64,000 nt of DNA, from the NCBI GenBank assembly GCA_900095095.1, contig FMBT01000325.1, forward strand, positions 124,001 through 188,000, given 5' to 3'. The notes beneath the pieces were generated by a model. The model searched no databases, was not told the origin of the DNA, and was given only the letters and a program-made list of their open reading frames with translations. The position numbers and the translations under genes are program-made. Origin of the DNA: Fragilariopsis cylindrus CCMP1102 (taxonomy: Eukaryota > Bacillariophyta > Bacillariophyceae > Bacillariales > Bacillariaceae). Shown here in pieces: positions 1-64,000 of the stretch. The stretch's first letter is position 1, and each line of letters opens with the position of its first letter.

Positions 1-1412
1 ATAGCAGCAGCACGCTTCTTTTGGATGTCGCTCGTTACTGCACCATCCTTGAGAAGCTTCAATACGACCTCTCGGATGGTACTGGTAATATCAATGACTG
101 TCATGCTCCACATCATTTCTATCATCGATGGAAGAGCATCTTCTTCTCCACCTTGAGTCTTTTTCGCAGCATCCTGCGCATTCTTCATCGCCCCGTACTT
201 CACGTCGAATGCCTTCTTGTTTGCTGACATTCCTTCCCCAATGGACCCGGTTACCTGAGTAACGACTAAGCCGTAAGTCATACCAACGGTGTTTAATAGT
301 TCTTCTCCGTATCGAACCTCTACGAGTCTTTTACCTTCCTCTCTCCACGAGGCCTCGCACCCTCGACATTACCATCAACGTATAGTTGTATCCTTTTCCG
401 CAAGGCCAGTGCCAATCGTAAGACACGACGACGCCCGAGCTCACGCAGTTGCTCATGAGTAACACTCGACGTTGAGGGATCCCCATCGGCACCAACAACC
501 AGTTGCTGCGTCACGAGTTGCAGTCGTCCTACGATGTCATTGAAGGAATCACTTCCAAACAAGAATGTAAAAATGAGCGATGGGTCCAAATTATCAGTAG
601 CTGCATCAGTTTTATCTAGAAGAGAGATTTTATATATTAAAAAAAGAAAATTGAGTCAGTAAATCATCGATATAGGGATCCAGATATATATATATATATA
701 TATATATTGGGGTTCGATTCGATCCGATCCGATCTCACAAATTAAGTAGTATATCATTTCTCTATATATGATGTAACACAAAATGAAACGTACCTGCACT
801 AAGTCCTTCCTCGCCTTCTCTATCATAAATAGCACGGAGTTTCTCGTCGCCCAAAACTTGGTACGCTTCACCAATTTCTTGGAATTTATCTTTAGCTTCT
901 TCTGTAGGATTTTTATCTGGATGCCACTTACGTGCCTGGATATAATATGCACGTTTAATTTTGGAATCCTTTGCATCAACTGCAACTCCCAATGCATCAT
1001 AATACTTTGTTTCCTTAACCTTTTTCGTAGATGCGTTAACATTATCATAATTGGGTTTGTCTGCAGCGGCCTCTGCGGCTGCCAACTGTAAAATATCATC
1101 ATCGTCGTCGGGGATTTCAGCGAGTGTCTTCTCCTCCTCCGTGAGGTTATCAATAACCCATTTACCTTGGGTAGCATCCCATCGTTTGCCTTGCACTCGA
1201 TTAACGGCCTGATCCGCGGCAGATGCTGTTACCGCACAACAACAAAGAAAGGGTAGACAGGCACAACCGACGAGACAAGCACAACATCCAAGAAGCAAGC
1301 CACATGGAGTTATCACAATATCTTCTTGGGCTTGGGCTTCACCCTGTGCTGGGGTGTTAACATTAGCGTCAGCGTTAGCGTTGGCGTTAGCGCTGGTATA
1401 GTTGTCCGCCAT
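1..1412 (-). CDS. DnaJ-domain co-chaperone with DnaJ-X region (3' end outside the window)
   Basis: J-domain protein that should stimulate an Hsp70 partner. The start at 1412 opens with an Ala/Asn-rich stretch, then a Cys-rich hydrophobic patch (residues about 36-60) that could anchor the protein in a membrane or be acylated. The J domain follows at about residues 136-205, with the HPD tripeptide seen in KWHPDKNP. Introns inferred by frame: 616-793 (GTACGT...TTCTAG) and 320-372 (GTAATG...GTAG). Joining these keeps one frame through a DnaJ-X-like segment ([11 protein letters not shown], then [10 protein letters not shown]) to the window edge at base 1. The 53-nt intron is short but removes an in-frame stop. 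J domain certain; DnaJ-X assignment likely. It is the first of three minus-strand genes. Confidence 0.85.
684..707. repeat. (AT)12 microsatellite in a DnaJ-gene intron
   Basis: Pure AT dinucleotide run inside the first intron (616-793) of the DnaJ gene, followed by a short run of GATCC units. Confidence 0.9.
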
Positions 1413-2377
1413 GATAGCAATTACGTGATGTGTGTGGTTATGAATTTCAAATTATGAATCTATTATTCAACGTACAATAATAATCGTAACTAAAAGAGAA
1501 CTCGTGAGCGCTGAATACCGTACAAAAACGAAGAGTGTGGATTGTGTATTTTTTCAAATGTGTGTATTAAAAGCTACTAAGCACGGTAACTTAGGGAGCT
1601 CCAGCGTACCATAAATTTTATATACTTCCTACTGTAACAAAAAAGAGTAAGAACTTAATTCAACGTCAAAAATTAACAAAAAAAGCGATGCTCTCCTAAG
1701 TATGTTTTTCCAACGTACAAATGTAACGTTTTTTTGGGTCTAAGTACCGTATATCACTATCACGAAATCAATTGTCCTAAATGTACTCACAATATCAACA
1801 TTACATCAAAGAAACAATGGTAAATCAGTTGTGAGCGCAACAATAATAGGAACGATAAAGTAGCGATGTTGACAAGGAGAGTGGAAACGAAGATTCTTGG
1901 TAGGCGAAATCCCCTCCTCGAATTCCAGATATGCTAGATATCGTCGCAGTAAAAAGAACAACATTACGCAAAGTCAAACGGGAACGCTTGTTACGGGGAA
2001 ATAGTAGCTAATTCTTACAGCAACAGAAGTAAACTGAAAACAGAGTGCCAATTTGGTATTGGAAATAAATGCTCGTTCAATTAATCATGGTGATTCAATT
2101 GAAATATTCCACATCTTTTGTGCGATACGATAGCTTCCTCTCTTTTTCTATATTCTTATGTTGATTGACAAATTGTTTGTGTGCGTATGCATGGATATAT
2201 ATATATATATATATCTATGCTTCTATTTCAAAGAGATTTTTGTTTTAAATTTATATTTATAACAGTTTCACTCTTCAGTGTCGTAATAGTTATCTCAATT
2301 CGTCTTGGTCTCGATCATTTTGTAAATACAATTTGATTCATTCATGACGGTAGTGAATATTTCCCACATTTTTCGCT
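1413..2377. other. Intergenic, AT-rich
   Basis: Upstream region of the DnaJ gene and downstream region of the WD40 gene. I see no credible coding region. It contains a second AT microsatellite at about 2195-2214 and several poly-A/T tracts. Confidence 0.7.
2195..2214. repeat. (AT)10 microsatellite
   Basis: Uninterrupted AT dinucleotide run in the spacer downstream of the WD40 gene. Confidence 0.9.
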
Positions 2378-4787
2378 TTAGATACCCCGCCAAACGAAAA
2401 GGTCGCCGTCAGTAGACCCTCCCAGTAATGCTGTCCCATTCGCGTTCATAGCAATACAAGAAAGTTCCGTTTCCATGCCATACCGATCGGTGAGGGATGC
2501 ATCCATTCGAAAGGACCAGGTTGGATCCTCACGCTGTTGTCGATGCGGCGAATAGTATTGATTGTCATCAAGCTTGTCGTATCATCGTGCGATGAACCAG
2601 AGCCAAAGAACGACATTGACGATGTGGTGGGAGGTTCATTCATGTCGTAAATGAAAATTCCAGTAGAAGCTCCAGCTGGTCTACAACCAGCATTGACGTC
2701 GTTGTTACCTGAAGATTGTTGATGTTGCTCCTATTCGAGCAGGTTGCTAAAAGATTGCGAGACGAAGCGACAGCGTGTATTGGTTGACATCCCAAAGAAG
2801 AATTGGTTTGGGAAGACCTTTCGTGTCATTTGGAAAGAACTTAAATTCAGTAGACAATGCTCGATACGAGTTGATTTTGTCCGCGATTGAGCCGTAACCA
2901 TCAATGATCCCCCGCGAGTACTACCATTATTGTTCGATCCACAGGATGGATCTCTAGTATTTGCCGATAAATTGGTAATGATATAGTCACTACCGACAGT
3001 AGAAGAATCTTTTCCTACAATGTTGTTGTCGTCAACAGCACACTTCCCGTCTGCAAAAGTCGCCCTAGAAAACGCCAATGCACCCTTCCCAGAAGTCAAT
3101 TGAGTATGAACCGTTGCTACGGGTTCTGCTACTTCGATATTGGAGTGTCGAAAGAAAGGAGACGGAGGGATGGCAATGATATCGACTGGTGTCGGCGACA
3201 TACTACCACTAGTATTAGTATTACTATACCGTGTATTTTTTTTCTTTACCATACGGATATCCCAAAGTTTGATACAAGAGGACATACCCGAATGTCCTAC
3301 GTATGGGAGATCACGATCAAAAAAATCTCCTGCAGGTGTTAAACCGAAATCACCACAATATATATGCGATGTTGCCATGCAAATATCTGTTACCATAGAA
3401 ACAGAAGTTATATGTTCCTCGCCTGTTCCCGGACGATCTCGGGTGCTACCATCGATTAAGACCGTAGTGGTTCCATTATTCGTCCGACCATCCAAGATCT
3501 GCATCCAAAAGGCATCATAATCGGAATCGACGTGAGCCACATGCAGAAGTGAATTCATTCCATTACTACCAGGATGAACCTCTAAAACGTCCCAACGTGC
3601 ATCGTGTGGAGGACACAAACCTGGTATGAATCGAACGGGAGAAGGAACGCGTTCCCGTCCGGCGTTGTAATCGATTTTGTGGAGTTCGGATATATTACCA
3701 TTAGTGCCATTATTATTGTTATTGTTGCTGTTGTTATTGGCGTGAATATCGTGAAGTGCATCATTGTTACTTGCGTGTCGAGTCAATTCATAGATTGAAA
3801 GACTTGGATTCCTCCGATCACGGTAATACTTTCGTTGGGGATGTTGTGTCCGATACGCCCGAAAAAACGACGACGATAGCGAGATCGGGGTAAGAACTCC
3901 GTTGTTGTTATTATTATTGTCATTTCCGTTACCACGCAATTAATTTTACGTTCTTCACCATACTCCAATCAAGCAGATATAGACTATCATTACCCATACC
4001 GAAAGCTTATAGTAGTAAAACAAAAGAGTAGATTTAAACACACAATCAGTATTTAAATTAAAAAAATTATTCAAGCAAGGGACATGCATGGTACACGAAT
4101 TTGGACAATTTTTCATTCTTACCAACCGTTGATCCACCGTTTAAAGCTTGGATGTGAATGTTCGAAAATTGCTGCTGACGTATATTAGCACCGAATTCAA
4201 ATTCGGTTGCAATTTCTCGTGCGTTGTTGTCGATAATGATCCTCTCCTTACTTTTGTCGAAGTTGGTATCCCAGCATCAGAAGTAGAACGGATATCGGCC
4301 AATCGTATCACATCCAACGCACCGCAGTTATCAACACCAATGACCTTGTCGTAGGAATCTAAAAATATACAACGATTGTAACAAGAAAAGGTGTGGATAC
4401 TTCAGGTTTTCGATGTATTATTTCGGGCAAAATAGTTCTTGTATTATTATTCGTCGTAGAATCAGAGTCAGAGTCAGACTTGTTGTCGCTATTATTCGTA
4501 AATGCACGCCGTCTTGCTAGATTTTCTCCCCAAGCTACATGATTTTGGCGTCGGTTTCGTTGTTGAGAAGAACGATGGCGAGATGACGTCGACAATGGAT
4601 TCGTCAGGAAATCGTTATCGTTATCGTTATCGTTATCATCGCCATCGCTGTCATGGTCAGTTCTTCTTCTCTGTCCCGGGTTTTGGAATGCCTCAATACC
4701 CAAACTTCCCACCTTTATAGCCTTCCGTTCCCTTCGTCGTTTACGGAACTTTTTCATTACTCTTTCACATCGTTCATCGTCGATCAT
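2378..4787 (-). pseudogene. WD40-repeat protein gene, frame broken
   Basis: Beta-propeller-type protein of unknown role, on the minus strand from ATG 4787 to a TAA at 2378-2380. WD-like blades end in CIKLWDIRM (about 3250), GIFIYDM (about 2650) and a terminal LGGSTDGDLFVWRG beside the stop. The N-terminal exon is basic then Asp/Asn-rich and nuclear in character. A good donor (GTTG|GTAAGA) lies near 4120. The gene does not read through. The frame jumps near 4265-4278 (LADIRSTSDA to WDTNFDKSKE). No clean acceptor restores the frame near 3940-3970. An in-frame TAG sits at 2731-2733 between blade strands. A last jump occurs near 2490-2515. Either a decaying gene or a stretch with base-calling errors. 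The resemblance to CDT2/DCAF propellers is only suggestive. Confidence 0.55.
4620..4645. repeat. (GTTATC)n tandem repeat
   Basis: Six-base units on the + strand; on the minus strand they encode the alternating Asp-Asn run of the WD40 gene's first exon. Confidence 0.8.
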
Positions 4788-5518
4788 TGTTCATATTTAA
4801 GTTGTAGAAATAAAAATATTATAAGACGAGGCGAGACACAGGAATTCGAGAATGGAAGAGACAAGCAAACCATGCAGATTCCAGTCGTGGATAATGCTAA
4901 TTTGAAATTCGAGTCAAAACTACATCAAATTTTCTGATTACCCTGTTTCAAGTTCCATTCCAAGTCTCAAGCTAAGCCTGCCACATACTATTGTTCAGCA
5001 CCAGGTCTTTTGCCAAGTGCTGCACCTAACTCTGCTTCCAAATTTTGATCCAAGAGGCTTATGAGTCCTGTTCCAAGTTTGAGACCCCAAAAGAAGAAAA
5101 ACTAAAGATGGCGCTACCAAAACATGATGTTGGTCATAAATGTATAAACTACATCATTGACTGTCTAAAATTTTGCATTATTTGATGATATGAATGTAGG
5201 CAATATACCAGGATTATAATGCATGTCTCTCCAATTTCACTTATAATTGTGTGAGTTGCTAGTTCTTCTTCGAAATGGATTTACCCTCACAAGGTTTCAT
5301 TATTTTTATTCCCATTCAGCTTTGATGTATCTTACTCTTTTGTCAGCAATTGTGGTCACATCATCAACAACAACTCCCTCCCAATTTAGTGATATTCGCT
5401 CCACGATGGATTATGCTCAAATAAGACAAGTCATGTATCATCTAGCTAGCTAGCTACGATACATCAACCAAACTAGTTCAAAAAAATAGATAGTACTTCG
5501 GTATCCATTTGGTTGTTT
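4788..5518. other. Intergenic, no gene recognised
   Basis: Spacer between the WD40 and SET genes. It holds only short open frames without recognisable protein features and a TAGC tandem near 5437-5456. Nothing else is supportable. Confidence 0.6.
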
Positions 5519-6236
5519 TTATTTCGAGATTCTTATGTTACGAAAATATTCTTCCACAAATCCATCAGAATACTTGAAAAGAAATCCTCGCCAATCGCGA
5601 TGTCTTTCTTGCATACCACCATCACCCTCGGAAGTTCTTCTACGTAAGCTATTTTCATTATAATGTTTGGTTCGTCTGCAATGCCTGTAAAATGATTAGC
5701 AAATCTCATTTCATTCCCCTCCCGTGTTGCATCTACACCGAGTGCATATTTCTTATTCCTATCTTCTAAGTACGTTGCGTATTCTGATCCATCATCACCT
5801 TCATAACTTCACCACAGTATTCCCCAATATATCAATTGTTCAAAAGGTTGTATAGCAAACAAACCACATTGACCGGACAGTGGATGTGTATCTTCCAATA
5901 TTCGTATTTCAACTCCATGAATGAATGGTCGTGCGGATCTTTTTTTATTTTCCTTCCCTGACTACTTCTTGGCCATGTGTTGGTAGATATATACTTATTT
6001 TTTTGAATATCTTCTGATGTTATTTTTTCATTTTTGCTGTAAGAAACAGGTACTGTCGATAGAAAAAAGCGAGAGTTTGCGTCATTTAATTCCTCTTGCT
6101 GTTTGTCGGGCGAAAGCATGGCCATCAGTGCCGATGATAGGATATATACGTTCGGATACAACATTGCATTCGTCTTTCGTCTTTCGTCTTTGTCTTCGTT
6201 GTTTTTGTCTTTCTCGAGAATAATACCATTATGCAA
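5519..6236 (-). pseudogene. SET-domain (lysine methyltransferase-like) gene, multiple frame breaks
   Basis: On the minus strand, frames placed end to end give a nearly complete SET domain. It starts GQCGLFAIQPF (about 5850), then GEYCGEV (about 5805-5822), then LGVDATREGNEMRFANH (about 5690-5730), the usual cofactor/lysine site with its NH pair, then VEELPRVMVVCKKDIAIGEDF and a tail to the TAA at 5519. SET proteins use S-adenosylmethionine to methylate lysines. Getting from ATG 6236 to the stop needs four frame changes: near 5941-5955 (A/T run), 5822-5826 (GGGG), 5805-5807 and 5577-5581. Three look like one-base losses and one like a gain. Relic gene or poor sequence; domain identity is strong, integrity is not. 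Confidence 0.65.
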
Positions 6237-11467: not shown

Positions 11468-14007
11468 TTATATACGTGAACGAACTACCGCCATCTGACC
11501 ATTTGCTGGAATTACATCGCCGATTCGAATTTTGAATCTATCTCCAGCTTGGATGCCGACGGGAGAAGTATATCGCCATTCAAGTCCTAACTCGTAGATA
11601 TATATCGCATATTGCCGCTTATCTGGATTGACACAACCAAGCACGAGAGCTTCGAGGGTGAGTTCGGGATTAGCATCTTTGAGGCGACGAACATATTCCA
11701 ACATCCAAAACTTATTAGTATTTCGCATGACAAACTTAGCGGGTCCCAAAAGTTTAATTTTGTCATTATAATCAATGTCTTTGTCGATGTTTTCTAAAGA
11801 TAGCTCTACCTTCCCGTCATTGTTCGGCGAGCGTAATTCGCATCCAAGATCTTCCGAGGTGATTTCAGTCGGAATCTTCTCTCCATTTGCCAATAAGTCG
11901 ATTACTTTTTGTCGGCGTATGAACCGTTTCACGGCAGCATGGACTTGCAAGTCTTGGAGTCTACGAATAGGTGAACTCCATTGAACGTAACAGTCCAAGC
12001 CTAGTCCAGAATGAGAGCTAGCACCGGGTGTGACTTTAGCTGGAGAGAGAAATCTCCTCGAATACCAAGCGTGACAGTAGCCGTCTCCAATATTACACTC
12101 TAACAAATCCATCATGATATTTCTATCTCGACCTCGTGACCGGTAATCTGGGTCTGGTTGACCCCGAAAGGTAATTCCAAGGTATTTGTCTTCCCATCAT
12201 TATCAACATTCGTTTGCGTTTCACGTAGCGCCCATTTTCCGATCGCTTCTCCGGCTAGAATCATCATTTCTGTAACAAGTGTCGAAGCGGACGATACAGG
12301 CAATTCATCTGAAATAGAAGATCCCCCATCTCGTCCAATGACCGCGTCTGCAACGATGGCAGATTGGTTTTTACCTCCATTGTGGCTCACTTGAACGTCC
12401 ACTTTGATACCCACACCGTCTAGAGCATTCTGATCGGGAAAGGTAGAAACAGTATATTGTGGAATCTGAGTCGGAACAAAGGCTTCAGCAGAACCATTTT
12501 CCATTCGAAAGTTCCGACGGTCTTGGGCTGCGGTGTATAGTTGTCCCAGTTCCCATTCTTCGCTGTATCCCACTCCATCTTCGAGCATTTCGTCTGCGTC
12601 GTCATATGTTAACCGATATGAAACTCGGACCGTTGATGGAGTTAAGATGATACTCTCGTCTATGATTGACCCATCTTCACGTAACTCTACACCCAATGAC
12701 AAGGCGCATGCGTCTGTCTGAGCCTTGAGTGACATGACATCATGACTAACGCTTGATGGCATCATCGGAATCGATGCACCGGGTAAATAAATAGACGTCG
12801 CCCTTTTTCTAGCGATCTCAAACAGTTCCGAATTTACTGGTGCGAATTTTTCGGAATCAGCGATATGTATCCAATAACGATACCGTTTTGTATCATCGGC
12901 ACCGTTGTTGATAATTTCGACGCCAAGTGCATCGTCGATTTCTTTTGTCGACGCAGAATCAATCGTAAAGATTTTTTGCGATCGGAAGTCTTGTCGAATT
13001 CCTAAAAGCTGATCTGGATCGTCGTTATTCTCGTTATTATCAGCAGTAGTAGCAAATCGATTTGCTACCTCTTTTGCTACTTCTTCTTCACTGTTGGTGA
13101 ATCGCACGGGAAACCCGCTACGCAATAGTCCTAAATTTTCATGTTTTTCCCAAACACCGATACGGATCAGTAAGTTGTAGGCTCCCAGTGGGGTTTGTTT
13201 GTTTTTCAAGTTAGCCAGGAGTTCGAAACCTGCAGTCTTTTCTTCTGCATAAGCATCGGATATGACACGGTATTTCAATCGTAACGAATGAAGTGGCGTC
13301 CACTGTTGTCCTATCGTTTTGTTTTCGATCTCAATCCTATCTAGATCTTCGGCGTCCTCCTTCATGTGATTCACTGCTCGACCAACACCAAGCGGATTCA
13401 TCGTTAACCCGTATGTCATACCAAGGACTAAGATTGATTGCAGTGATGCTATGGCTTCCGCAACAACCTTTCGATACTGAACGAAATTTTCGTCATCGTC
13501 TTTTTCTAGAACCGTCCTTCCAATCTCCGTTTCAGCGGCGTGGAGGAACAACGATTCTAATTTCTCTTCTCCTTCTAGTTGACTACAAAGATCGACGAAC
13601 CTGCCTTTTGCCATGTCATATGCTATCTGATTTGCTGTTTCTATTTTCGCAGCATCTTGATAATCTACCCCACACTTAATTGAATCATCTGATGACAACA
13701 GCGGACGTATCAGTCCTGCCATTAGCTGTATGGGTTCATCGTCGTCGTCATCGTCATCGTCGGTGATATGTGAAATTAAAGAATCTATGTCGAGAGAGTC
13801 CTTGTCGTTCGTCTTCGCTTTGAGTAAAGACGACGAATAGATTCGATCATTACATAATATTAATGACTCATATTCATTCTGCTGTTGCTGAAAGTAAGAA
13901 GTTTTCAGTTGTGGTACAAAAGCAGTCGTTGTCGTAGACAATGACAAAATGGACAACATAAATAAAAACATGATAGAAAACGTTGTCCGAAAATGAAAAC
14001 TCAACAT
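11468..14007 (-). CDS. RNase II/R-family (RNB) exoribonuclease, organellar type, one frame break
   Basis: Exoribonuclease of the RNB family, about 846 residues after joining two frames. The N-terminus (ATG 14007) has a hydrophobic signal-like stretch ending TTTTAFVP, which fits plastid import in this lineage. The RNB active site is FTIDSASTKEIDDALG, with clustered Asp that bind two metals. It is followed by WIHIAD and by the RNA-contact segment GLGLDCYVQWSSPIRR near 11950-12010 and a C-terminal S1-like region. The first frame stops at 12112 and the second opens at 12115 in the +1 register, in the middle of the catalytic domain. No intron fits there, so one base appears to be missing around 12110-12122. 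Plastid or mitochondrial 3'-5' RNA processing is inferred. Confidence 0.8.
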
Positions 14008-14437
14008 GATGATGATCTATAAATTGAAACAGACTTCTCTATTAAATTGAGGTCCGTAGGAGATGATAGGATCGGCCGACAGCAACGGAGAAATAAACTG
14101 AATGCACCGACTTGTCTTTCTACTAAGTTAGTCTGCTATGATGATGTTGTGAACATTTAATTTGCATGAAATGTAAACTGCTTATTGTGAAACTGATGTC
14201 TTAAGAATCTTCTCGTCATCGATCATTAATGGTCTAGAAGATAACGGGACTGACTCGATTCTGAGTCCCACATTCTATCTTGTCCATTTTGACTTTCAAA
14301 AAAATTAAAAAAAAGTCGTTTTTTTAATTTTATTTAATGACAATTGATTACAGTAACTAGCTTTTAGACTCGTGTTCATATTGTATCCAGTAATTCTCAG
14401 ACTACAGTACATACTCTGTAACAAATCACTTTAAAAA
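14008..14437. promoter_or_regulatory. Divergent promoter region, RNase gene / BUB3
   Basis: 430-bp spacer between two divergent starts. TACAGTAC at 14403-14410 lies about 28 bp before the BUB3 ATG; the same octamer precedes several other genes here. A poly-A/poly-T block sits at 14299-14330. Confidence 0.4.
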
Positions 14438-15591
14438 ATGGCGACAACACAACCCCCTCCAGAGGCCAAATTGTTAGACAAATTTCCTGATGGAATATCG
14501 AAGCTTCGGTATCTACCATCGTCGTCATCGTCCAACGACAATGATAGTAAAAAGTTATTAGCCTCGACCAGTTGGGACGGCGCAATACGTATACACGACA
14601 CTGCCGCTACTAATTCACCATTGATGCTTACACATAACATGGAGTCAGGTCCACTGTTATCGTTAGCTATTCCGGTAGTAGGCTCATCATCGTCATCATC
14701 GGAGGCGAAAACGATCGTTACGGGTGGATTAGACGGTAGCATTAAATCATTTGATATCACCACATCTATGGTCCAATCGATCGGATCACACGGCAGTGGT
14801 AATACCAATGCGTGTTCGTGTCTGGCTACTATGAGTAACGACGACGACTCTTCCTCATCAAATTTAGTAGTTTCAAGTAGTTGGAATCGACAGCTGTGCG
14901 TTTGGGATCTTCGACAAAATAGTAACAGTAACAGTAACAATAACAATAACAACAATACCCCCGCTGCTGAAGCTGTTCTTCCTGGTAAAGCATTTGCTAT
15001 GGATGTAGACGTATCCCGAAATCGTATTATGGTCGCAACGTCGGGTCGACGCAATTGTTTTTTCGATTTGCGTATGCTGAAAGAAAAAAATAAATTCCAA
15101 CTCGATTCTGTCTTGGAACGCGAATCGTCATTAAAATTCCAGACAAGATGCGTCAAGTTTTTCCCCAACGGGTACGGGTTTTGTCTTGGGTCTATCGAAG
15201 GCAGAGTTGGCGTCGAATTTCTTGATGCACTTATCAACGATGCACCAATGAAGCTGACTAAATATGCATTTAAATGTCATCGGGACAGTAATGGATTAGT
15301 GTACCCTGTTAACGCAATCGATTTTCATCCTAAGCACCGACACACCTTCGCTACCGGTGGATGTGACGGACGGTCGTTTTATGGGATGGAAAGAACAAGA
15401 AAAAATTAACTTCAACACCCAAATTTCCAACCAGTATATCAGCATTGTGTTTTTCTCCAGATGGAACCGAACTAGCCATTGCCTCTAGTTACACCCACGA
15501 AGAGGGAGATCGAGAACAACATCCCCAAGATGAATTATATATTCGTCCTATCCTGGATAGTGAGGCTACTCCCAAAAAAGTAGAAAAATAA
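14438..15591 (+). CDS. BUB3: BUB3 spindle-checkpoint WD40 protein, one frame break
   Basis: BUB3 docks BUB1/BUBR1 to phosphorylated KNL1 at kinetochores. Seven-blade propeller features: STSWDGAIRIHD, TGGLDGSIKSFD, SSSWNRQLCVWDLR. The family hallmark runs from RESSLKFQTRCVKFFPNG through SIEGRVGVEF and YAFKCHRD to YPVNAIDFHP and FATGGCDG. The frame breaks at 15377-15381 in TCGTTTTATGGG. The other frame then carries LWDGKNKKKL, FPTSISALCFSPDG and a normal C-terminus to TAA 15589-15591. The span of 1154 bases is one short of a multiple of three, so exactly one base appears to be missing, most simply a T in the TTTT run. Acid- and Ser-rich loops enlarge blades 1-3. Identity is strong. Confidence 0.88.
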
Positions 15592-16146: not shown

Positions 16147-17444
16147 CTAAATTGTAGAGTCCACTAGACGATTGAATTTTCGACAGGTAGACTCCCAGAC
16201 TTCGTCCCATTTCATCATACTTAATCCTCGATCTAGGGTTTCCCTCCGTTGTCTCCTAATATGGAGCGAAGTTTGCCACGCTTCCTTGACTTCCTCAAAA
16301 GAAAAACCTCGTTCCTTGACTAAAATATTATGCCGTTGTTGTAACGTCAATTTGAGTTGCCGACGTTTCCGTCTAGGTGGTCTATCTTGTTCATACTTCT
16401 CTAGCGGTATGATTTTTCGTGCAAGGTGACGCGGTTCGGCAAGTTCCCCGTCCAACATGACAGGCGGTCCTGACGTCGCGGACGGATGATTCCCTAATGT
16501 CATTTTGAAACTACGTATATCGACATTTGTGAATTGTACGGAATTATTAGATCCTCGCCCAATATTACCGCAAAAGGTGGGGTTGTAATCTGATGAAGAA
16601 CGTATGAGGATGCGTTGTCCGTCAGGTTTCTTTTCGCCATTATTAATTTCTTTGTAGTAGTAGTAGTAGAAGATGCAGGGTATTGAGACGGTGAGCTGTA
16701 CCTTGGATGGCGCAAAACGGATATCGGATACCCGCCATTCGTGTTATTTCCGTCATTCACGATATCGTTGGCCGGTAGAGCACATTCTCCACACGGTGCG
16801 GCGCAGAGATGTTCGATGATATCATCTAAATTAGCTTGATATTTGTTAGGATGCGTGTCTTCTATTTCGTCATCAAGATGGGTGTAATCGGGTGATTCTG
16901 GATTCGCTTGATTCAAATGCTGATCCAAAACGTCTAGGTATTCCATCTCTTTTGCGTCGTCTTCGACATTAATAATGAAGACGTCATTTGTATTGACAGA
17001 ATTGGTATCGGAACACATGCTGTCATTTCGAAAGATACCACTATTTTGCTGGTCCTCTTGTCCTCCTCCCTGTCGATTTCTTCCTCTGTGAATAATATTG
17101 GCCCTTTGTTTTTCTACGACTCGTTTCATGAGATTCATTTCATTCGAACCCTCAAGAATTTCATCGGTAGAATCGAAGCTATCCGCGAGGCTTCGATCGG
17201 GTGAACCCGGAGCCCTAAGGTACTCGAATTGCGGAGACGGTCCGACAGTAGTAGATGATCCATTGTTGATATTATCGTTGTTTTTATAGCTTGCTGGGGA
17301 GACCACTATGCGGGGGGACTTATCGTTTGTGTCGATCGTATGGACAACTTCGATTTCCGCGATGTCAAAGGCCCCGCAACAAGTCATAGGTAATGATTGA
17401 TAGTCGTCTGGGCTAGCGATGTATGAGCTAGCGATGGGAGGCAT
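16147..17444 (-). CDS. Protein of unknown function, acidic N-terminus and basic C-terminus, one frame break
   Basis: Not recognised. ATG 17444 opens an acidic, Ser/Asn-rich, disordered region with a small Cys motif (HLCAAPCGECALP, about 16790). A conserved-looking C-terminal part follows: IIPLEKYEQDRP, a basic patch RRKRRQLK, then a predicted helical segment ending at TGA 16147. The two parts are in different frames. The coding frame changes near 16644-16656 beside AAAGAAATT (minus strand), after which the new frame reads EINNGEKKPDGQRILIRS into NPTFCGNIGRGSNN. No intron signal explains this; one base appears lost. The basic region suggests nucleic-acid or nuclear association, which is inference only. 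It converges with BUB3. Confidence 0.6.
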
Positions 17445-18054
17445 TACTCGGAATTATGTTTATTTTATTCTGGTTTGTCTCGAAAAAGACCTCAGCAAAC
17501 ACAAAAAATCTCGAAGGAAAGAACCACGAAAATTAATTGTTCTTTTGCGTTTGCAGACTGTGTCCTTTCAATTGTTTTCTACAGTTGGCAACAAATGTCG
17601 GATAGAGGTGTCGTTATCGTAGCAAGGGCAATTTGAATATGAAAGTGGAACTGTTCAAGTTCAAGAAGAGGAAACCCGTGTTGTCGACGTTGCACAATGT
17701 TAAATGTGTGTTTAGCACTTGCCATACAATGCATGTATTGTATACTTATCTAAGAAGGAAAACAGCCTGTAAATATATGTGCGTACCGAGTGCTGTTGGC
17801 GTGAGCTGAAAATCATACAACAATAGGGATTGTTTCGTAACCTCAAAAAATGAAAAAATGAAGCCAGTGCGCCATGAATCCAAGTCTTTTTTAGATGGTG
17901 CGAGTCAGTCGGTCCCGAACGGTCGACAACATTTCAGACGTGCGTTAATAAAAGATACAATGTTTTAGTGATGAAAATTAACTTGACACTTTGAACTTGC
18001 ATATTATGTTATTACTGTACTAATACAGGGTAACTACTGTACTTCCTCCATTCT

Positions 18055-18236: not shown

Positions 18237-18239
18237 TGG

Positions 18240-21342: not shown

Positions 21343-21346
21343 TCAC

Positions 21347-22298: not shown

Positions 22299-22586
22299 AG
22301 AAATTAGGAGGAGATGGTTTTCCCGACTTTTTTCGTATCAATTTTTTCATTGGTCCTTAATTATTTCATTGTCTCCCCAAGTATCAGTTACTAGCACGCT
22401 ACTGATGTAGCTACTCGCTTCGTAGATACATGCAGCAGTCCTACAATTTGTACTGTGTATACTCCTGTTGTTTATATTGTAGTGAATGATCCTATTGTCA
22501 CTACTACTGTATTACTTGCTACGTGTTCTACAGTACACATCAGCAGCACAAATATTTCTATCCTCACGACGATTTAATGGTCAGCC

Positions 22587-27739: not shown

Positions 27740-27925
27740 TACGAACTCTCGCATTGCTTGCTGCTATTATTTTTAATTTCAAAAAATTTGATAGAAATCA
27801 TCCTTATTATAATTTATTAACTATGATAATAATCATAGAACTGGACCCCCTATTGCATATTAGTAGTGGTATGGTAGTAGTAGTAGTAGAAGTATTATTT
27901 GTTTATTTCTATAGTTACATTTCAT
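27740..27925. other. Short convergent 3' spacer
   Basis: Only about 185 bp separate the SAC3 stop from the stop of the convergent gene, so the 3' UTRs probably overlap or abut. Confidence 0.6.
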
Positions 27926-40128: not shown

Positions 40129-40858
40129 AACACAAATCGAAGGCTTAAATTTACGTAACTACAGTATACCAATTAAACACGTCATCCCTCTAAAAGTTCT
40201 CTCACCCAAGACTTGATTGAAAAAGTCCAATGTTTTACAAATGAAAAAGTAGTAAATCGCGCGTAATCGTACCACTGCGCGAAATTGAATGATAACAAAT
40301 ATGCCTCGAGGACTAGAATGTTTAAATTTAGCTTTATCATTTTATTCTAACTGTGTCGCATCGTGATCGAAATTTTATGATCCTAAGTGATTCGCGGAAG
40401 TTTACTTAAGGTATAGGCCCAATAAATATACAACTTACTTTAATATAATTTTATTCTTTATGAAGTTTTTCCTATTGACTTCTTATGATAATAAAAAAGG
40501 TTTTAACGCGTTTTGAAATTTTATGAATGACAGTGTTTATTTTCTAGGCCCAAGATCATCGCTTTGAAGTTTTGAGGGGAAATTATTATTGTTGTCAACA
40601 ATGATATATATTGATTTGACAGAGCATTCTAGTCACCGTATTTTTACCGTGCTGCTACCTTGTATCGATTGTCGAAAGAAAGAGAGTAGAGAAAAATAAA
40701 TATCAATGCACATTACCGCACGTGAACTCCTATTAAAAAGCATTGATTATCTATTTTTCAATTGAAAAAATCATACAAGAGTGTGGTAGACGTAGATTAT
40801 ATTTGTATTACAGTAGACGTAGACGCACCAACTTGTACTGTAGACGACGATCAATCAG
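40129..40858. promoter_or_regulatory. Divergent spacer
   Basis: 730 bp between the divergent INSIG-like and plastid-membrane genes. TACAGTAT at 40160-40167. Otherwise AT-rich. Confidence 0.4.
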
Positions 40859-41988
40859 ATGAGATTAGAAATAGCTGTTATAACGATCCTGGTCGGGAGT
40901 GCCCAAGATGTATCGTCCTTTGCCCATACAAATATATGCAAAAGAGCAACGCCGGGTACTAGTATTAATATAGGTTCGCCGTTGGCAAGACAACATGATT
41001 ATCTCCCTCTGAAGCATCTAAACTATGCGAGCAATGCAACTGATTATACGATGGTAGAGGATGTCAAACTTCCATATAAAATGCCTTCCCTTGAATCAAT
41101 TCAGCAAAGTATCGCTGGTTCATCCTACGAAATGAACACAGGAATAAACACAATAAAAGTCACGAAAAAATCATATAACATAAAGGAACTTGGTCTGCAG
41201 GTCGCTGCTAATGTTGTCCCAAGACCTACATTAGATGATGTGAAGGGGAATCGCGGTCCACTATCACGCTTGGGTTTCGTTTCGGCATCATTTTTTGGTG
41301 CATACAGTGCTATGTTTGTGTATCTACTAAATCACGTCTTGACGCAGATGAGTACCTCACTGTACTCCAATGTTGGTATAAATACATTAGCATTATTTTC
41401 GGCTGCCTTCTTTTGGGACAACTTTATTCTATCAACGGGATCTTTCTTTTTAGAAGCATAACGCGTCCAAATAATAAATTCAAGTTCAAAGTATTAGAGG
41501 CTTTATCATATCCTCGATTTATAGCTCATGCACTATTAACTCCATTCTTACTCAAGTCAAGTGCTGAACTCGGAAAAATGGCAGGTATACCGTTCTTTAA
41601 TCGCCCGGTTGCACAGGTAGGTGCAATGGTAATCGCGTCAACGATTGCAGTCCTGAGTACGATTAACGTTGTTAAGGGGGGAATCACGATCGACACTAAT
41701 CCTAGGAAATGCATTAAGGGCGAGATGACGTTTTTCAAACACGGGGAGAACTCTTTTTTCCATGTTCTACCTTCACTACTCGTAACATTTGTGAATCTAT
41801 TTATAGGTCTCTCAGTTAAAAGTGCGGGTAAAACCGCGATGGGAAATTGGATGCTTATTGGATCCGGTGCAATCCTATCTCTTTTCGTTCCTCTTTTTGG
41901 TTCCGGTGTCACCAAGATCAGTGGTAACTTTAGTGAGGTCATACTGATTTTATCATACGTCCAAGCCTCGGTGGCAGCGGCACTGTGA
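40859..41988 (+). CDS. Plastid-targeted multi-pass membrane protein, unknown function, one frame break
   Basis: About 376 residues after joining two frames. ATG 40859 opens a signal peptide ending VSSFAH, with Phe just after the cleavage point as in diatom plastid presequences. Helices include FVSASFFGAYSAMFVYLLNHV and INTLALFSAAFFWDNFILSTG. After the break come VLEALSYPRFIAHALLTPFL, VAQVGAMVIASTIAVL, FHVLPSLLVTFVNLFIGL and NWMLIGSGAILSLFVPLFG, six to seven membrane spans in all. The first frame ends at 41461 and the second (-1 register) is open from before 41413 to 41988. The apparent missing base is near 41445-41453 in TTTCTTTTTAG. Family not recognised; conserved residues such as WDN and FxHG may matter. 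Confidence 0.7.
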
Positions 41989-55082: not shown

Positions 55083-55265
55083 AGGAATATAATTTATGTT
55101 GATCTTCCCCGTCACGTACTACTATAATATGTAGGTAGATTAATATCAAATGATACACTTTTTCTACAATAAATTATATTGGTCGTACTTCTGTACCTGA
55201 ATTAATAATAGCACACCTTTTTTTTGGATTAATTAATCATTATTTTTAGCCAAAATGATATCTGT
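55083..55265. other. Short convergent 3' spacer
   Basis: About 180 bp, AT-rich; 3' UTRs probably abut. Confidence 0.6.
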
Positions 55266-56542
55266 TCATCGACGATGGGAAGAGGACTTCCCAGACCGAG
55301 CATATAAAATAAAGCCAGCGTATGCCAAAGATAGTCCTAATAGAACCCCATGCCCTATACCGGTGTTGTATGCTGTTCGTTTTTGTACTTTTATCACTTC
55401 TTGATCAGCAACATCTCTTTCTTTATCATCCTCGCCGCCGTTTTTGTCTTCTTGTTGTTGTTCAGTTATTGCTTGTTGTGCTAATACTATGGCTCCCATA
55501 AGACCAACATCAGAACCGTATTGACTTAACGTAATCCATTCTGACATGTCTTCACCAGACAGTTCACCTAAATAACCATTCAACAAAATCTTAGTACGAC
55601 GTCGAACTTTTTCAATTAATCCATTACGTTTCATAATACCACCACCTAATACAATTTTTTCAACGGACGTCACCAACACCAATGTAGCACATAAGTTAGC
55701 TAACGCGTTCGATGCATGATCCCAAACAGGATCATCGTCTTGTACGTCTTTTAACCAATCTCTATTCGACGATACTGTTTGTTTCGTGATTTGTTCTATC
55801 CGTTCGGTAAGTGCCACCGACGACGTCATACTTTCGACAGTATGTTTCCCTTGAAAAGGACTTTTGCTATCGGTACCCCACGAATAGCCTGTAAATGTAT
55901 CACCGTCCAGGGGTTGTATAGGAACATGACCAGCTTCGGGATGCATTCTTCCATGTACGGGTTTGCCATGAATAACTAAACCAACACCGACACCAGTACC
56001 AACTGTCACATAAGCCAATGAAGAAATTTTTTCTTCCTCATCTTACTATTATTACATGGTCGTTTTTCCTTTTCTTTTTCTGATATATATTCTGCTACAG
56101 CAGGTGCATTCACGTCTGTATCAATTTTTACTAGCAATCTATTATTATTATTGCTGTTTCCTTGACAGGCCTCCACTAATGGTGACAACACATCAATATC
56201 TCTCCAAGACTTTTTAGGTGTCGTTGATAATATTTTTCCATAAGTATTGGTTACGTTAGGATCAACACCAAAAGGTCCAAACATTGCTATGCCTAATGAT
56301 TGATATCCATTACCATTATTATTATTATGTTTTCGAAAAAATGAAACGCATTCCTCTAAAGTACGTTTCGGATCATCATGACTACTATCGATTTCTTGGC
56401 GATATAAAATTCGTGGTACTGCTGGTACAGTGGTCTTATTGTTATTGGATGATACAATCTCAATCTCTGCAACGGCTACAACGAATGACGTTCCTCCTCC
56501 TTCTACTGCAGCAATCAAAATTGGTTCTGCTGGATCGAACAT
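55266..56542 (-). CDS. ROK-family sugar kinase (fructokinase-like), tail-anchored, one frame break
   Basis: About 425 residues after joining two frames. The ATP phosphate-binding motif is near the start (IAAVEGGGTSFVVAVAEI), the catalytic-Asp motif LVKIDTDVNAPAVAEY matches fructokinase-type ROK enzymes (DTDVN), and YVTVGTGVGVGLVIHGKPVHG and HPEAGHVPIQP follow. The zinc-binding Cys loop that normally follows (CPYHGxC-like) is replaced by SPFQGKHTVESM, so zinc binding is probably lost. The C-terminus adds an acidic Gln/Asp/Glu linker and a hydrophobic helix (GHGVLLGLSLAYAGFILYA) with a basic tip, as in tail-anchored membrane proteins. Frame 1 ends at 56006; frame 2 is +1 from an AAAAAA/TTTTTT run at 56026-56032, a one-base loss. 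Family identity good. Confidence 0.78.
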
Positions 56543-56879
56543 GATCTGACTATTATTGTTGTATATCGTACAAAGTATTAGATGCTAGTTGTGTACGATA
56601 TCTTCTTTCCCTGATCTATTGTTTCTGGTTTGATTTGTTGTGTTGGTTTAACAACGAGACATTCGACGCCGTTGGAAAAAATCGAAAAACTTTAAGGAAC
56701 TAATGTTTCTTTCGCGCGAACGCCGCGCGACATCAACAAATTTATTTTGATTATTTCAAAATAAAAATGCGAAAATCTAGCTTGGATAAATATAAAAGCT
56801 TCTCGACTTCGAACAGCTCTGAACTGAATACATCCCAACATCCCATAATAATAACAATCATAATAATAATCCTGTTGAC
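56543..56879. promoter_or_regulatory. Divergent spacer
   Basis: 337 bp between divergent starts; a GCGCGAACGCCGCGCGA GC-rich word at about 56714 stands out. Nothing more specific. Confidence 0.4.
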
Positions 56880-59800
56880 ATGCATGACCTGTTCATGCAT
56901 GGGGAAAACATCAAAATGAACGACAACGATGAAAACGATAATGACTACGATGGCGATGGCGATGACAACGACAACAAAAATGATGAAATCTTCCATAGAT
57001 CCGTCCGATCTATCCTAGATCAGCTAGTCAAACATTTCCGACAAAATATTCATTCTGATTTAGAAGAAAATTCGCCAACAATGATTGTTCCGTCGAATAA
57101 AAACAACGACGACGACAATAACGATAGTAGAGTATACGAAAGCAACGGTAGTATAAATGATGGTGATAATAATGAACTACCACGAGAATTATCACCAATT
57201 ATACGATATTGGTTGGATCAATTATGGTCTATTGCCGTTCAACAACAACAACAACAACAACAACAAGTTGGGACCACCGATACTACTACTACTACTAATA
57301 ACAAGGACAATGACAATACCGCCATCGAAGTGGAAGTTATAATGGTAGTTTCAGAATGGATTAAAGGATACGAAACATCCATTCGATCTATTATTTTTGA
57401 TACCAACGGTACCAACCACCATCGCACTGCTACTGCTAATACAATACTTGTACCTCCGTTTAATCCCGGTTGCATTTCTGTATTAAAAAATTACGAATTG
57501 GTACTCTCAGAGATATTGTTAAGATTACTGGATCTGGTAGCTGCTCGCGATGACGACGACAACAACAATAATGATAGAAACGATGACAACAACGATAACA
57601 GTAATAATAATAATAATAATAATAGTAATAATATTACGAAAAGTGGAACTATCGTAATTAAATCATCGACATCATCATTAATAGCGACATCCTCATCATC
57701 ATCGTCATCACCGGCAGCATCATCATCGTTGAAACGAAGTCTTTCGAGGACTATCAACATTATTTCTTCCGACGTTACAATTCTGACTGCCGCCAAAAAC
57801 AACGAGGACAACGAAGACGACAATAAAAATAAAAATAAAAATCTTCGAAGGAACGTAGCACTTCCAATGCTTTTGAAAATTCTCAGTGATACACTCACAA
57901 CATTCGATCAAGTATGTGTAGTACTCGACAATAACAAAAATATTAATAGTGATGAAAACACTAGTATTAATAATGATAATAATGGGGTAAACAATTGTTT
58001 ACTCGAATACTACGATTGTTTCAGACGGTGTGCTGTCACGTTACTTGCCTTTGACGATGGCAGCAGCAACAACAACAACAAAAACGAAAAAGATGGAAAT
58101 TCAGCAACTTCATCATTGAATGTACTGTCTCCACATCACTTATCGCCGTCGTTGTCATTGCCAATATCGACGTCGGCGTCGTTGATGACACCCTCCTCGT
58201 CGGTTAACGTTCACAAAAATGATAATTTAGACATCGTACAGCGAATGATCAAACGTTTACAAGATTGTAGAGGAGACTCATCATCAAAGAGCGATGATGA
58301 TGATGATGATGATGGTGATGGTGATGATGATTTATGTCCAAGTTATTCTTATTTGGATGATAATTATTGGGATTCGTATTCGAAGAGTTACCTTTCGACA
58401 CAGGGTTGGATCGATCCAAATAATACAAAATATGTATCACAGTTGGTAGACGACATTTGGAATAAAATGCTATCCCTCTTATTGTTGAACCGACGACAAG
58501 TCGAAGAAGTCCGACAATCGAAACTGTTACAACGTAAATCTGTACTCAAGATTTTGGGTGGTGCTAGTCCATTGCTTCGGGACGTTCGGGCACATTTTTT
58601 TGGTCGAGATATGCACGGAGTGGAAGAGCTTTTAACGCCAACAACAAGAAGAAACGGTATCGGCGTCATCAGTAGTGATACGAATGGGACGACGGGTAGT
58701 AAATACGACGACAAAGAAACATACTAGTCGCAGTAATTCTAATGATGACCCACCGTATCAAATGATACCATCTAGAATCGCAGTTGCTGTGAATGCTTTG
58801 AGACTTTTACTAACACCAGATATGACACTTTGGAACAAAACGATTATCAGGATGACGTTGTTGATGTGTCGTCGTATGGTTATCGGATAATACGAGAAAA
58901 GATATTAGAAGATGTATTTCCTATTTGCGCCAGTTTGGTAGATTCGACCAACACTACATACAGTACTTTGGGAGCTGCTGGGTTTTTGTTGGTGACAGAT
59001 GTACTACTGCAATCACAATCAAGGACACAACAATACACGACGTCGTTGATGATGATAGGAGAAAAATCTTGAAGTGCAACAATAATGACGGCAACAACAA
59101 CAACAACAACAACGACAATGCTTTGTTAAATTTTATGGAAAACACACTATCCGTTTTGGAACGGGCCTTCCAATCGAGTGAAGGTCATGGTCCCGTAGTA
59201 GTTACAATTGGCCGAGCGCAAAGCAAACTATTTGAAATCATGTTGCGACGAAAAGAAAAAAATGAAGACTGTCATTACGATGACCACGTACGTCGTCGAA
59301 GAAGAACCGTGACTGGACATTGGCTTACTCGTCTTGAAAAATCATCGTATCGTCCAACGAGTGAAGAGCAATGCTTGGAACTTTTGTTGGGAGGTATACT
59401 TCCATTATTGTCGCAACATGCTATAGATAGAAATAATGAGGCCGATGCGATTGAGGTGGGTCGGATGGGACTTGCTGCGTTGTTACCATTAACTACAATG
59501 ACAACAACTGATGGTATGGGAGAGCTTTGGGGAGACGAAACCACTAGGAAGACTCAAATGGCATCAATGGTAGCCTTGATTAATTTAATGTTCGCGGCTC
59601 ATCTCATCATGCCGTGTCACGGAGGCAAGATCATGAGTAATTTGCTAGCGGCTGCCGCTACCGCCACACCAATAACTAACGGCAACAAAAACGACGGTTG
59701 GTCTGAAGAAAAGAGTCCAAAGACACCAACAGCGGCGTCAATACGGAGTATGGCTGTACTGACCGCTGCTATCGCCTTGAATATTTGTGGACCCAAGTTT

Positions 59801-59920
59801 GCGGGTGAGCTTGTACAGTCTATCGAAAAAGATCATGAACAATATCAACAAAATATACTGACCGTTGTTTCTGAAGTATGCAAACTAGCCGGGGACTTGA
59901 CAGTACGTGAACAAATCTAG
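56880..59920 (+). CDS. Large helical-repeat protein, possibly TTI2-like, frame broken
   Basis: About 1,000 residues across four frames. The N-terminal half is dominated by Asp/Asn and Ser runs around short conserved islands (ELSPIIRYWLDQLWSIAVQ, NPGCISVLKNYELVLSEILL). The second half is helical: KYVSQLVDDIWNKMLSLLLL, REKILEDVFPICASLVDS, YSTLGAAGFLLVTDVLL, FMENTLSVLERAF, ECLELLLGGILPLLSQHAI (order as listed). This resembles HEAT-type scaffolds; the FPICASLVD and late-repeat arrangement recalls TTI2 of the TELO2-TTI1-TTI2 complex, which matures PIKK kinases, but this is weak. Breaks: near 58710-58730 (a gain or two losses), about 58830 (loss) and about 59060 (loss). ATG 56880 follows the divergent spacer with ROK. 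Confidence 0.5.
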
Positions 59921-60855
59921 CTCATAGTAGTCCTACTGAGAATTAGTATAAGAATAGAGCTACTTTACTTGTAGAAAAATGGCTATGACAAATAAAATAC
60001 GATAAATAGGGATCAACAACATGAATTTCTAGTGAAACATATGTTTGTACTCTATTTGCTATTTCGCATTCAACAGTAATGAATGTATTTATGATTTTTC
60101 TCCCCGAGTGTGTCAAAAAATAAAAATCTAAATGACGTAATACAAAGTCCAGAATATCTACCGTACTTGTTCTTTGAATTAAGATACATAATATATTGAT
60201 GCCTTATTCTGTGTTTAAATGAGTGAATATAAAATAGATAATGCATGTGATATGATTATTTGTAGAAAAGAATAAGATATTTACTTCCAGGATGGATCGT
60301 GGAGTCACCAAGGAGTCGTCAAACTCGTTGTAACAGTGTTTTAGCTAGACGTGCTTCCATCATCGGTAAGCTTTTATTACTATTTCATTTTTTACTAGTC
60401 CTAATGAATTTGACCATGGTGGCTCAATTTTAGACCACTTCCAATGAATGAATATAGACAAAATCACACTCATTCGAAGAAGCATCTCAACTACTACTAC
60501 TGCGCTCCTTTTCTGGTTCAAAGTCCTCTTCTATAAGCCAAAATATCATTTTTTACTAAACTGGGACTGTTTTTTAGCGTGCTTTAGCGTGTGTTAATTT
60601 CTATCGTGCATTTTTTCCTGCCAAAAGATGCGTCTTTAGACTGCATTCGCGCATTAAATATTATGCTGCTTATCCCCGTGGACACTCTCCGTTGCCCGGA
60701 GGAAGTACTTCTCACTCATTATTACTCATTACCTTGTTTAATGAAAGAACACATCATCATCCTTTCGCTTGCTAAACAAACTGGTCATACTTGTACTATT
60801 TATCATATAGCTAATAATATTATCGTTACTTCGTGAAGAGCTTGGCGAGAATAGC
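59921..60855. other. Intergenic
   Basis: 935 bp AT-rich spacer. A small open frame 60591-60836 shows no features. A doubled GCGTGCTTTAGCGTG-type word lies near 60578. No gene supported. Confidence 0.5.
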
Positions 60856-61498
60856 ATGTCTACTATAATCCATCCGGTACCAGCGTCCCGTCAAGAATCG
60901 CTGCAATTGACGAAACTGACAGCAGCAAAAAGATAGCAACAAACAACAGCATGATGACGATAACGATAACGATAATAACGATAACGATAACAAGAAAAGC
61001 ATCGACGATGACAAAACAAATAGCGGGAGCAAAAACGTTGCTGAAAGATTGAGGGATAGTAGCAGTAGTAGCAGCAACGACCAGGGTACAAAACAACCAC
61101 GTGTTCATCAACAAAGACGTTCTATAGCTACATCGGGTTCACTTTTTGTGGCAGGATTTGCTCATCAGATCAATAAAACTCATATAGAAAAACTGTTCTC
61201 TAAATTTGGTAGACCAAAAAGGATTTCAGACTTTATGACAGGTCAAAAGTCAGACGCGAAATTTTGCTTCGTAGAATTGGATTCAACAGAAAATGCTCAA
61301 AAGGCAATAGACTCATTACATATGCGAATGCTACTAAATAAACGTTTAGTTGTTCAACCAGCAACGAATAAAGATGATTCATCGTCCTCGACGAGGTCCG
61401 TTGCTGTTCAAATGAGTCCTGCAAAGGAACGAATCCTTATAGATCAAAAAATTGCTGCACTTAAAAAGAAAATCAAAGAGTCACAATCCGATGATTGA
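60856..61498 (+). CDS. RRM RNA-binding protein, RBM18-like, one frame break
   Basis: About 214 residues from ATG 60856. N-terminal 85 residues are polar with an Asp-Asn run. A single RNA-recognition motif follows, RNP2 SLFVAGF and RNP1 KFCFVELD (about 61245-61270), with helix KTHIEKLFSKFGRPKRI and NAQKAIDSLHMRMLLNKRLVV. The C-terminal tail ILIDQKIAALKKKIKE matches the short helical tail of RBM18 proteins, a little-studied spliceosome-linked family. The first 23 codons run in a different frame from the rest; the change sits in an A5 run near 60924-60930, where one extra A (or two missing bases) would explain it. The RRM part alone reads from about 60940. Binding to RNA is well supported; the RBM18 name is tentative. 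Confidence 0.75.
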
Positions 61499-62042
61499 TT
61501 CGTCGATATATATTATGTGTACACACACGCACATCTATGTTCGACAGATGATATGGGCTGGACATCTTAAATGGACATGAGAAAATTAAATACCATCACA
61601 GTAATAGAAATAGCTATCATAACAAAACTGAATTGATTCATTCGTCGACTTAATCATTGATACTATAGTTTAATTGTCAAAGCAGTCTAGATACTACAGT
61701 GTTCTAGAGTATTTTATAATGTACCAATACATTCTCTTTTTCTTTTATTCGACTGGCTGAAACCATCGAAACTTAATTTACACAACACGCATGCTCTCAT
61801 CAACTAATGATATTATCATGCAAGTGTATTGGATAAAACGGAGGGAGCCCCTTGCATCGTTCTTGTATTATTTTATTGATATTTTTATATTTATGCAAGA
61901 TACTGGAATGAATGAAATTGAATTAATAATAATAGGCGAATTGTGAGCGTGAAATTTAATTTAGAGCGAGACAAAATTGATATTATTGTGACACTTCAGA
62001 TAGAATGAACTTTTATATCACAAAAAGGACAAAACTACTTAC
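61499..62042. other. Convergent 3' spacer including probable last cullin exon
   Basis: AT-rich. The cullin reading frame stops at a donor (AAC|GTAAGT, 62037-62042), so a tiny final exon should lie here; I could not place it with confidence. Confidence 0.5.
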
Positions 62043-64000
62043 GTTATATACTTGAGTGTTGTCGGCGCTTCGTTCGAGGTATTCCCGTTCAATCAAAGCC
62101 TCGATACGTTTTTTCACAAGACGAGGGTTGGGACTGAAAAAGTTCAATTGAGCAAGAACTTCTGACAAAAGTTGTTGATGCTGAAGAGTTTTACGTGCTT
62201 TCATGATCCGAACAATGGCAGCCTCAATCGCAATCGTTCGATCCTCCTCAACGCGCTTCGTATTCAATTGTCCATCCAACGAGGCCATCGGGATACGAAT
62301 TTTACGCATATTGCTAGAGAATTTCTCGTTGGCGGTGAAAGAATCCGTAGTGTTGATCTTGTTACTGGCAGGTGTCTTTTTGATCACTTTATACTTTCCA
62401 CAAGAAAGAGAATGCATCAAAGGCTTCAGAATATTTTCTTCCACATTAAGCTTTGTTGCCAATTCTGTGAACGTCATAGTTGCACCACCATTCATAGCAT
62501 CCAACGCCACCGCCTGAAGTGTAGCGACCTGAAGGTCGTACGACTTCTTTCCAAAAATCCCACGAACCGATGCATTCCCTTGAGAAAATACCCAACCCAA
62601 TTTTCTCTTTTGATGCTTTTGATCGTGCCAATCCTTGAAGATGTCCATACATTTGGACATTTGTGGTGTAAGAGCAATTGCGGGACTCTTATAAGTAGGC
62701 CAGAATCCCGTCGTTAATACTTGTACACTAAAATCAAGTTTCGTATCAACAGTCGCAGTTGATTTCCGAATTCTGATCGTTGTCCAGCACCAACAGCGAG
62801 ATCATTAAGCATACCTTCCATCTTGGATGTAAATTGCGTTCCACACTGCATCTTGAGTTTGGCAATCATCGATTTTTCCGCATCATTACTCGTGGATCGT
62901 TGACTGAGTAGTCGCTTTGCGAGTTGATTACGGTAGATTTCAGCGAACATATCCTTGTCCGTCAAGTACGAAAAGAGTTGAACGATTTTTTCTAAATTGG
63001 CATCAACTTCCTTTTCACTAAGTTTTTCACCACCACTTTTGAGGATTCTGTCGCAGAACGTCGACATCAATTCTGCGTTTGTGAACTGACCGACATTTTT
63101 GTTGACGATCTCGACGAATGCATCCTTCAATCCCTTTTGAAAGAGCGAGTTCCCACCAAAGTCTCCTTTACAACACCTAGGTATTTTTCATGAAGTGCCA
63201 TAATCGACTTAACGAATTTTGGATCGTCATTCTTGTCCTTCTCTCCACTGTCCAGACGGGCTTTGCGACGATTGATTATATCTTCACCCATCGATGTGAT
63301 AAAGTTCTGTAATATATTAGCCATAGGATTAAGGCCGTTCTCGAGTCTACCAAATAGACGGTACATACGTTGAAGATCTTCCGACTTGTCGTTCTGCAAT
63401 AGGGCCCGGCATCCAGATCCTTCCTTTTCTAGCAGAACCATTTCGACACGTTCTAAAATTTCTTCCTCGACTACCTTCAAAATCTTGGCTTCCGAGGACG
63501 TATGGAGGTAATCCTCGACACGCTTCCGCTCTGCGTCTAATGCATCTTCAGCCTTGATAAGATAATCTGGAGTAGAATCGTTGATCCAATCTTCACGCTT
63601 TTTGGCATAGTATTCTCGCGTAGAAGTAAGTAGTGGTTCTTCTAGATCGGTATTGTATGCATCGAGGGTACCCATTCCCATACTCTCGTAAAGTTCAACA
63701 ACACTCTTCACTAAACTTTTATCGATGATCTTTCCTTCACGTTCTTCGTTGATAAGTCCATGTATTGCCGAGGTCGTATCGCCCTTTATTTCGTCGTAGA
63801 CATTAGTTCGAAAACATCGTAATCCCGCTTCACTTAAAGTAGGTAAACTATGATGTTTGACGTAGTACCGATCGAGGTAGGTAAAGAACTTCTTTAACCA
63901 TTTATTCATAATTTGATGATTTTGCCAACGGTGTTTGAGTTCCGATATAGAATTGTTCCACCCTGACTTGTTTTATCACGTAATGCGGGAAGAACGTTGG
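62043..64000 (-). CDS. CUL1: Cullin, CUL1 type (5' end outside the window), frame broken
   Basis: Scaffold of a cullin-RING ubiquitin ligase. From the right edge: ELKHRWQNHQIMNKWLKKFF (cullin repeat) and FLDRYYV-like YLDRYYVKHH. The cullin-homology domain follows: LKDAFVEIVNKNVGQFTNAEL, FSYLTDKDMFAEIYRNQLAKRLL, KMQCGTQFTSKMEGMLND, TTGFWP. The C-terminus is the winged-helix neddylation domain IVRIMKARKTLQHQQLLSEV (acceptor Lys) and LIEREYLERSADNTQVYN. HQQLLSEV is closest to CUL1. Frame breaks (one-base losses) near 63975, 63161-63174 and 62741-62752. CUL1 partners are SKP1/F-box proteins. The final residues (usually YLA) require an exon past the donor at 62042. Family certain; CUL1 subtype likely. 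Confidence 0.85.

Follow-up and report, generated by a model that had tools for sequence, protein, structure and literature searches.

Split reading frames in a Fragilariopsis cylindrus contig are very probably residual consensus errors of a long-read assembly

Why do genes in a single stretch of the Fragilariopsis cylindrus genome so often change reading frame part-way along their coding sequence? The stretch, called here the window, comprises 64,000 bases (positions 124001-188000 of contig C97) of an assembly that was made from PacBio RS II P6C4 reads with FALCON 0.3.0 followed by Quiver (PMC5634323). That assembly was described as 745 primary contigs (59.7 Mb) and 288 alternate contigs (9.1 Mb) (PMC5634323); the assembly searched in the present work holds 67,884,144 bases in 818 contigs. 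A sequence-only reading of the window had listed 13 places at which a gene is split between frames, and had proposed uncorrected long-read indels as the simplest explanation, with pseudogenisation or programmed -1 frameshifting as alternatives. We conclude that the breaks are almost certainly residual consensus errors of the FALCON and Quiver assembly of PacBio reads, because where parts of the stretch were assembled twice, the second copy mostly lacks them or is broken elsewhere.

Frame breaks in the window

Three-frame reading shows that at each of the 13 listed places (13/13) the coding sequence passes directly into another frame, and the breaks are real features of the assembled sequence (Table 1). 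Homology points the same way for the cullin, ROK-family, and BUB3-like genes (below), for the downstream SET domain, and, in its C96 copy, for the SSB-family gene. Shifts were also called with a frame-aware Markov model. Of 73 open frames that span at least 250 codons, taken from the window and from other loci, 64 served for training; the nine omitted rows came from redundant loci. This model recovered 126 of 128 simulated indels and made a single false call across 61.7 kb of unbroken frames, mostly its own training frames. At the same setting it called 17 shifts in the window, 15 of them losses and two gains. Nearly all shifts have one sense, in agreement with the earlier reading. One of the gains, at 38705, falls on its gene's own stop codon, and a loss at 63945, which the model calls at the same place in a second copy of the sequence (contig C428, below), may mark an exon edge. 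Dense damage is undercounted by the model: by eye, there are about seven shifts in the WD40-like gene, about four in the SET-domain gene, and 14 in the gene for a single-stranded DNA-binding (SSB) family protein. In the three-frame view, several of the listed genes hold multiple breaks and not one. The counts for the WD40-like and SET-domain genes were made by eye from one copy, and stand outside the 26 assigned indels described below. A break missing from the earlier list is included in Table 1. ARAGORN and Rfam, the latter at the gathering threshold, returned nothing in the window.

Table 1 Second copies and frame-broken genes in the window. SNP and indel-piece totals are upper counts.
Feature	Position in window	Strand	Breaks and supporting observations
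Stretch assembled again as C96 (14,106 bases)	27704..41765	+	17 SNPs, 56 indel pieces
Stretch assembled again as C428 (20,180 bases; runs past the window)	56433..64000	+	60255-60705 replaced
Extra frame break, not in the earlier list	345..368, near 357	-	Model call and direct shift in three-frame view
WD40-like gene	2400..4790	-	About 6 losses and one opposite-sense shift, by eye; model calls at 2580 and 4365
SET-domain gene	5550..6236	-	About 3 losses and one opposite-sense shift, by eye
RNB (RNase II-type) gene	11468..14016	-	One break near 12169; PF00773 on both pieces; three-frame view and model
BUB3/RAE1-like gene	14435..15588	+	One break near 15384; solved-structure matches on either side
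Gene without Pfam match	16147..17453	-	One break near 16655; three-frame view and model
SAC3/GANP gene	22578..27739	+	One break near 26152; SAC3_GANP PF03399 upstream of break; three-frame view and model
SSB-family gene	29060..30255	+	12 losses private to C97, 1 private to C96, 2 shared (near 29373 and 29873)
Beta-helix-like repeat gene(s)	30899..33479	-	Losses at 32835, 33049 and 33358 not in C96; further break near 32243
Membrane-protein-like gene	40844..41988	+	Break near 41450 common to C96; two more losses in C96 (41145, 41266)
ROK-family gene	55266..56584	-	One break near 56043; three-frame view and model
Asn-rich gene	56823..59920	+	Broken at 58638, 58828 and 59018; single 1,036-codon frame in C428
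RRM gene	60850..61498	+	Losses at 60865 and 60926 not in C428; RRM_1 PF00076
Cullin gene	62013..63972	-	Losses at 62753 and 63163 not in C428; C428 has its own loss at 63132

Second copies in the same assembly

Four pieces covering the whole window were searched against the contigs of the assembly, and parts of it recur in two contigs, C96 and C428. For C428, 20,000 of the 20,180 bases were compared, corresponding to window positions 56433-60254 and 60706 onward. Over 33.2 kb, the two copies differ from the window contig by 35 SNPs versus 95 indel pieces, both of which are upper counts because a single difference may be reported by BLAST as several pieces, and indels outnumber SNPs. The 95 indel pieces consist of 69 one-base differences, 14 two-base differences, 9 multiples of three, and 3 others. 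The sequence-only reading had placed many of the breaks in or beside homopolymers, which the comparison does not support: 32 of the 69 one-base differences lie in runs of at least two (0.46; expected 0.45), 14 in runs of at least three (expected 0.17), and 4 in runs of at least four (0.06; expected 0.07). With the indels not concentrated in homopolymers, a homopolymer-type error of the nanopore kind was rejected. The differences are instead clustered along the sequence, with a variance-to-mean ratio of 6.4 over 33 one-kb bins. They are dense at 27.8-34.7 and 60.7-67.2 kb and absent from 35126 to 40149, and within this difference-free interval both copies keep two long genes open.

At a coding indel where the frame stays open in just one of the two copies, the damaged copy can be identified. 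All 26 of the coding indels that are assignable in this way are losses; the window contig carries 22 of them, and C96 or C428 the other 4. The losses in the window contig fall in the SSB-family gene (12), the beta-helix-like gene (3), the gene at 58.6-59.0 kb (3, one of them of two bases), the RRM gene (2), and the cullin gene (2), while those in the other copies fall in the SSB-family gene (1), the 41 kb gene (2), and the cullin gene (1). The count leaves out differences that are multiples of three or form groups summing to them (28233-28256, 29295-29296, 29977, 30171, 34636, 57687, and 60974), as well as 32162 and 34010, for which the broken copy is not assignable, 30262-30270, which lie past the stop, and 64163-75919, beyond the window. 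Of the 29 coding breaks that were assigned, 26 are private and three are shared. In the cullin gene, the two breaks of the window and the single one of C428 lie at three different places. The SSB profile PF00436 matches the C96 copy of its gene. At the sites where two copies can be compared, the breaks are thus mostly private to one of them, which disfavours both pseudogenisation and programmed -1 frameshifting.

The beta-helix-like gene, which has PT-rich repeats, also contains a 245-base tandem duplication (31841-32334) with halves that are 91% alike. Judged by the C96 matches to both halves, the duplication is present in C96 as well.

Null alleles, frameshifting and consensus error

The alternative that survives best, although we consider it highly improbable, is that the breaks are real null alleles, the product of pseudogene decay in one of the diverged haplotypes of a diploid. 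It may be inferred from PMC5634323 that C96 and C428 belong to the alternate haplotype contigs. The copies differ by some SNPs and repeat-length changes, and the block at 60255-60705 is swapped in C428 for about 840 unrelated bases; the SNPs and the replaced block show that true haplotype difference is present too. One-base differences are also mildly depleted in coding sequence, with 33 in 20.8 kb of coding compared with 36 in 12.4 kb of noncoding sequence (p 0.013), and real alleles are probably mixed into the differences between the copies. Selection on real alleles would, however, be expected to deplete coding one-base differences far more. Null alleles are also difficult to reconcile with the excess of indel pieces over SNPs, and with the assignable coding indels all being losses, where pseudogenes would show substitutions and indels of both senses. 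The SSB-family gene would have to carry 12 one-base losses with few substitutions. Moreover, the damage is found in both copies and affects housekeeping genes such as those for cullin and SAC3. Pseudogenes are very unlikely at the assigned sites.

On the window side, the replaced block includes a dispersed repeat of about 200 bases (60360-60571) that has some 40 other matches in the assembly at 77-90% identity.

The three breaks shared by C97 and C96 lie near 29373, in a short one-base run, 29873, and 41450. The two contigs may share reads at these positions, or the error may be systematic. It is highly improbable that these breaks in the SSB-family gene (29373 and 29873) and the membrane-protein-like gene (41450) are genuine in the living cell, with ribosomal frameshifting or a process at the RNA level bridging them.

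Programmed -1 frameshifting in many genes is less probable again, to the point of being negligible. It would account for shifts that are nearly all of one sense, and a loose X XXY YY hexamer lies near 3 of 20 losses private to C97 against a background of 0.07, too few sites to tell. A fixed programmed shift should be present in every copy, but the other copy lacks the shift at the 26 assigned sites, which such a mechanism therefore cannot explain. As many as 14 shifts would be required in a single gene, and no common motif is seen by eye at the 20 sites. Among the listed papers on frameshifting in diatoms or F. cylindrus (8, and 10 of 13), none reports, by title and abstract opening, programmed frameshifting in the nuclear genes of diatoms. 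Introns mistaken for frame breaks have a similarly minimal probability and were rejected as the cause of the listed breaks by three-frame reading and homology: true introns do occur, such as a canonical GT-AG intron of 145 bases (48300-48444) in a protein kinase gene and a probable one near 4122-4003, where the WD40-like gene seems to carry a real intron, but at the listed breaks coding continues without a gap, and wherever two copies could be compared the indel can be seen directly. The pieces of the cullin gene match PF00888 at adjacent or overlapping positions (72-335, 327-464, and 470-620), as do those of the ROK-family gene with PF00480 (21-121 and 119-293), and only a short gap separates the matches of the BUB3-like pieces to chain 3mmy (up to residue 297, then 305-353).

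Residual consensus error accommodates these observations best, and the preference of the sequence-only reading for uncorrected long-read indels is borne out: just such indels are seen in the second copies within the assembly, and the PacBio RS II, FALCON, and Quiver source fits. In this process, the consensus would have dropped single bases, mainly in poorly corrected patches and at places not tied to homopolymers, and every single-base loss within an exon would move the frame by one. Thin or split read support may have left the patches uncorrected. The three shared breaks, the coding depletion, the true haplotype differences, and a loss bias that is weaker in scattered loci than in the window (below) count against this explanation. 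Passages of two reports on indel errors in long-read assemblies likewise describe one-base indels in the consensus that split genes (PMC12007338, PMC8306402). These passages stress homopolymers or bacterial genomes, whereas the present case is a diatom genome in which homopolymers are not enriched.

Genes without a second copy and the rest of the assembly

No second copy was found in the assembly for the WD40-like, SET-domain, RNB, BUB3-like, 16.65 kb, and ROK-family genes or for the break in the SAC3/GANP gene, an absence that is firm only for 2300-6300, 11400-17500, and 25900-27703. Queries with 2300-6300 (6 of 6 candidates scored) and 11400-17500 (16 of 16) returned just C97 itself and short repeats. 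The query with 25900-30300 returned C97, plus C96 from 27704 on, and that with 42000-56600 returned C428 from 56433 on, with 39 of 76 candidates scored. A query with 31001-50000 left out C96 despite their overlap, and long queries can therefore miss copies; in some long searches no more than 39 candidates were scored. For the genes without a second copy, about half of the list, the verdict consequently rests on analogy, by which their breaks would have the same cause. Within the SET-domain gene, the SET domain itself (PF00856) lies in the downstream part, at 5550-5805.

The break rate in the window is not special, with similar rates elsewhere in the assembly and no breaks in some samples. Expressed as the number of shifts that the model calls per kb of coding sequence, with exon edges set aside, the rate is 0.38 in the window (14 losses, 2 gains), 0.53 in C97 upstream of it (5 losses, 3 gains), and 0.49 downstream (6 losses). 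Thirty scattered 3-kb loci, which came in through repeats and are not a random sample, have a rate of 0.40 (11 losses, 7 gains), with a weaker loss bias than in the window. The model called no shifts in 13.2 coding kb from 10-kb samples of C265 and C91, and none in 15.2 coding kb from loci of C60, C415, and C80. Judged from match tables, chaperonin matches on C347, C655, and C451 look frame-broken, with most others open or containing intron-sized gaps, and HSP70 matches on C693 and C70 look frame-broken as well.

A fosmid check of the same assembly covered 13 fosmids with 420,988 aligned bases, and found 1,185 SNPs and 622 indels (PMC5634323, Table 3). Indels per fosmid are very uneven, from 0 to 135 or 0 to 4.6 per kb, and in this respect are patchy like the differences in the window. 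Part of the fosmid differences will be haplotype difference; the table separates neither errors from haplotype differences nor losses from gains, and split reading frames are not a subject of the paper (PMC5634323). Gene models, pseudogene counts, and frameshift claims that draw on this assembly will contain patches of error. Comparing overlapping contigs of one assembly and asking which copy keeps the frame provides a cheap test that needs no reads.

The ice-binding family PF11999 has 53 matches in the assembly, several of them in tandem on one contig, which fit a polar diatom.
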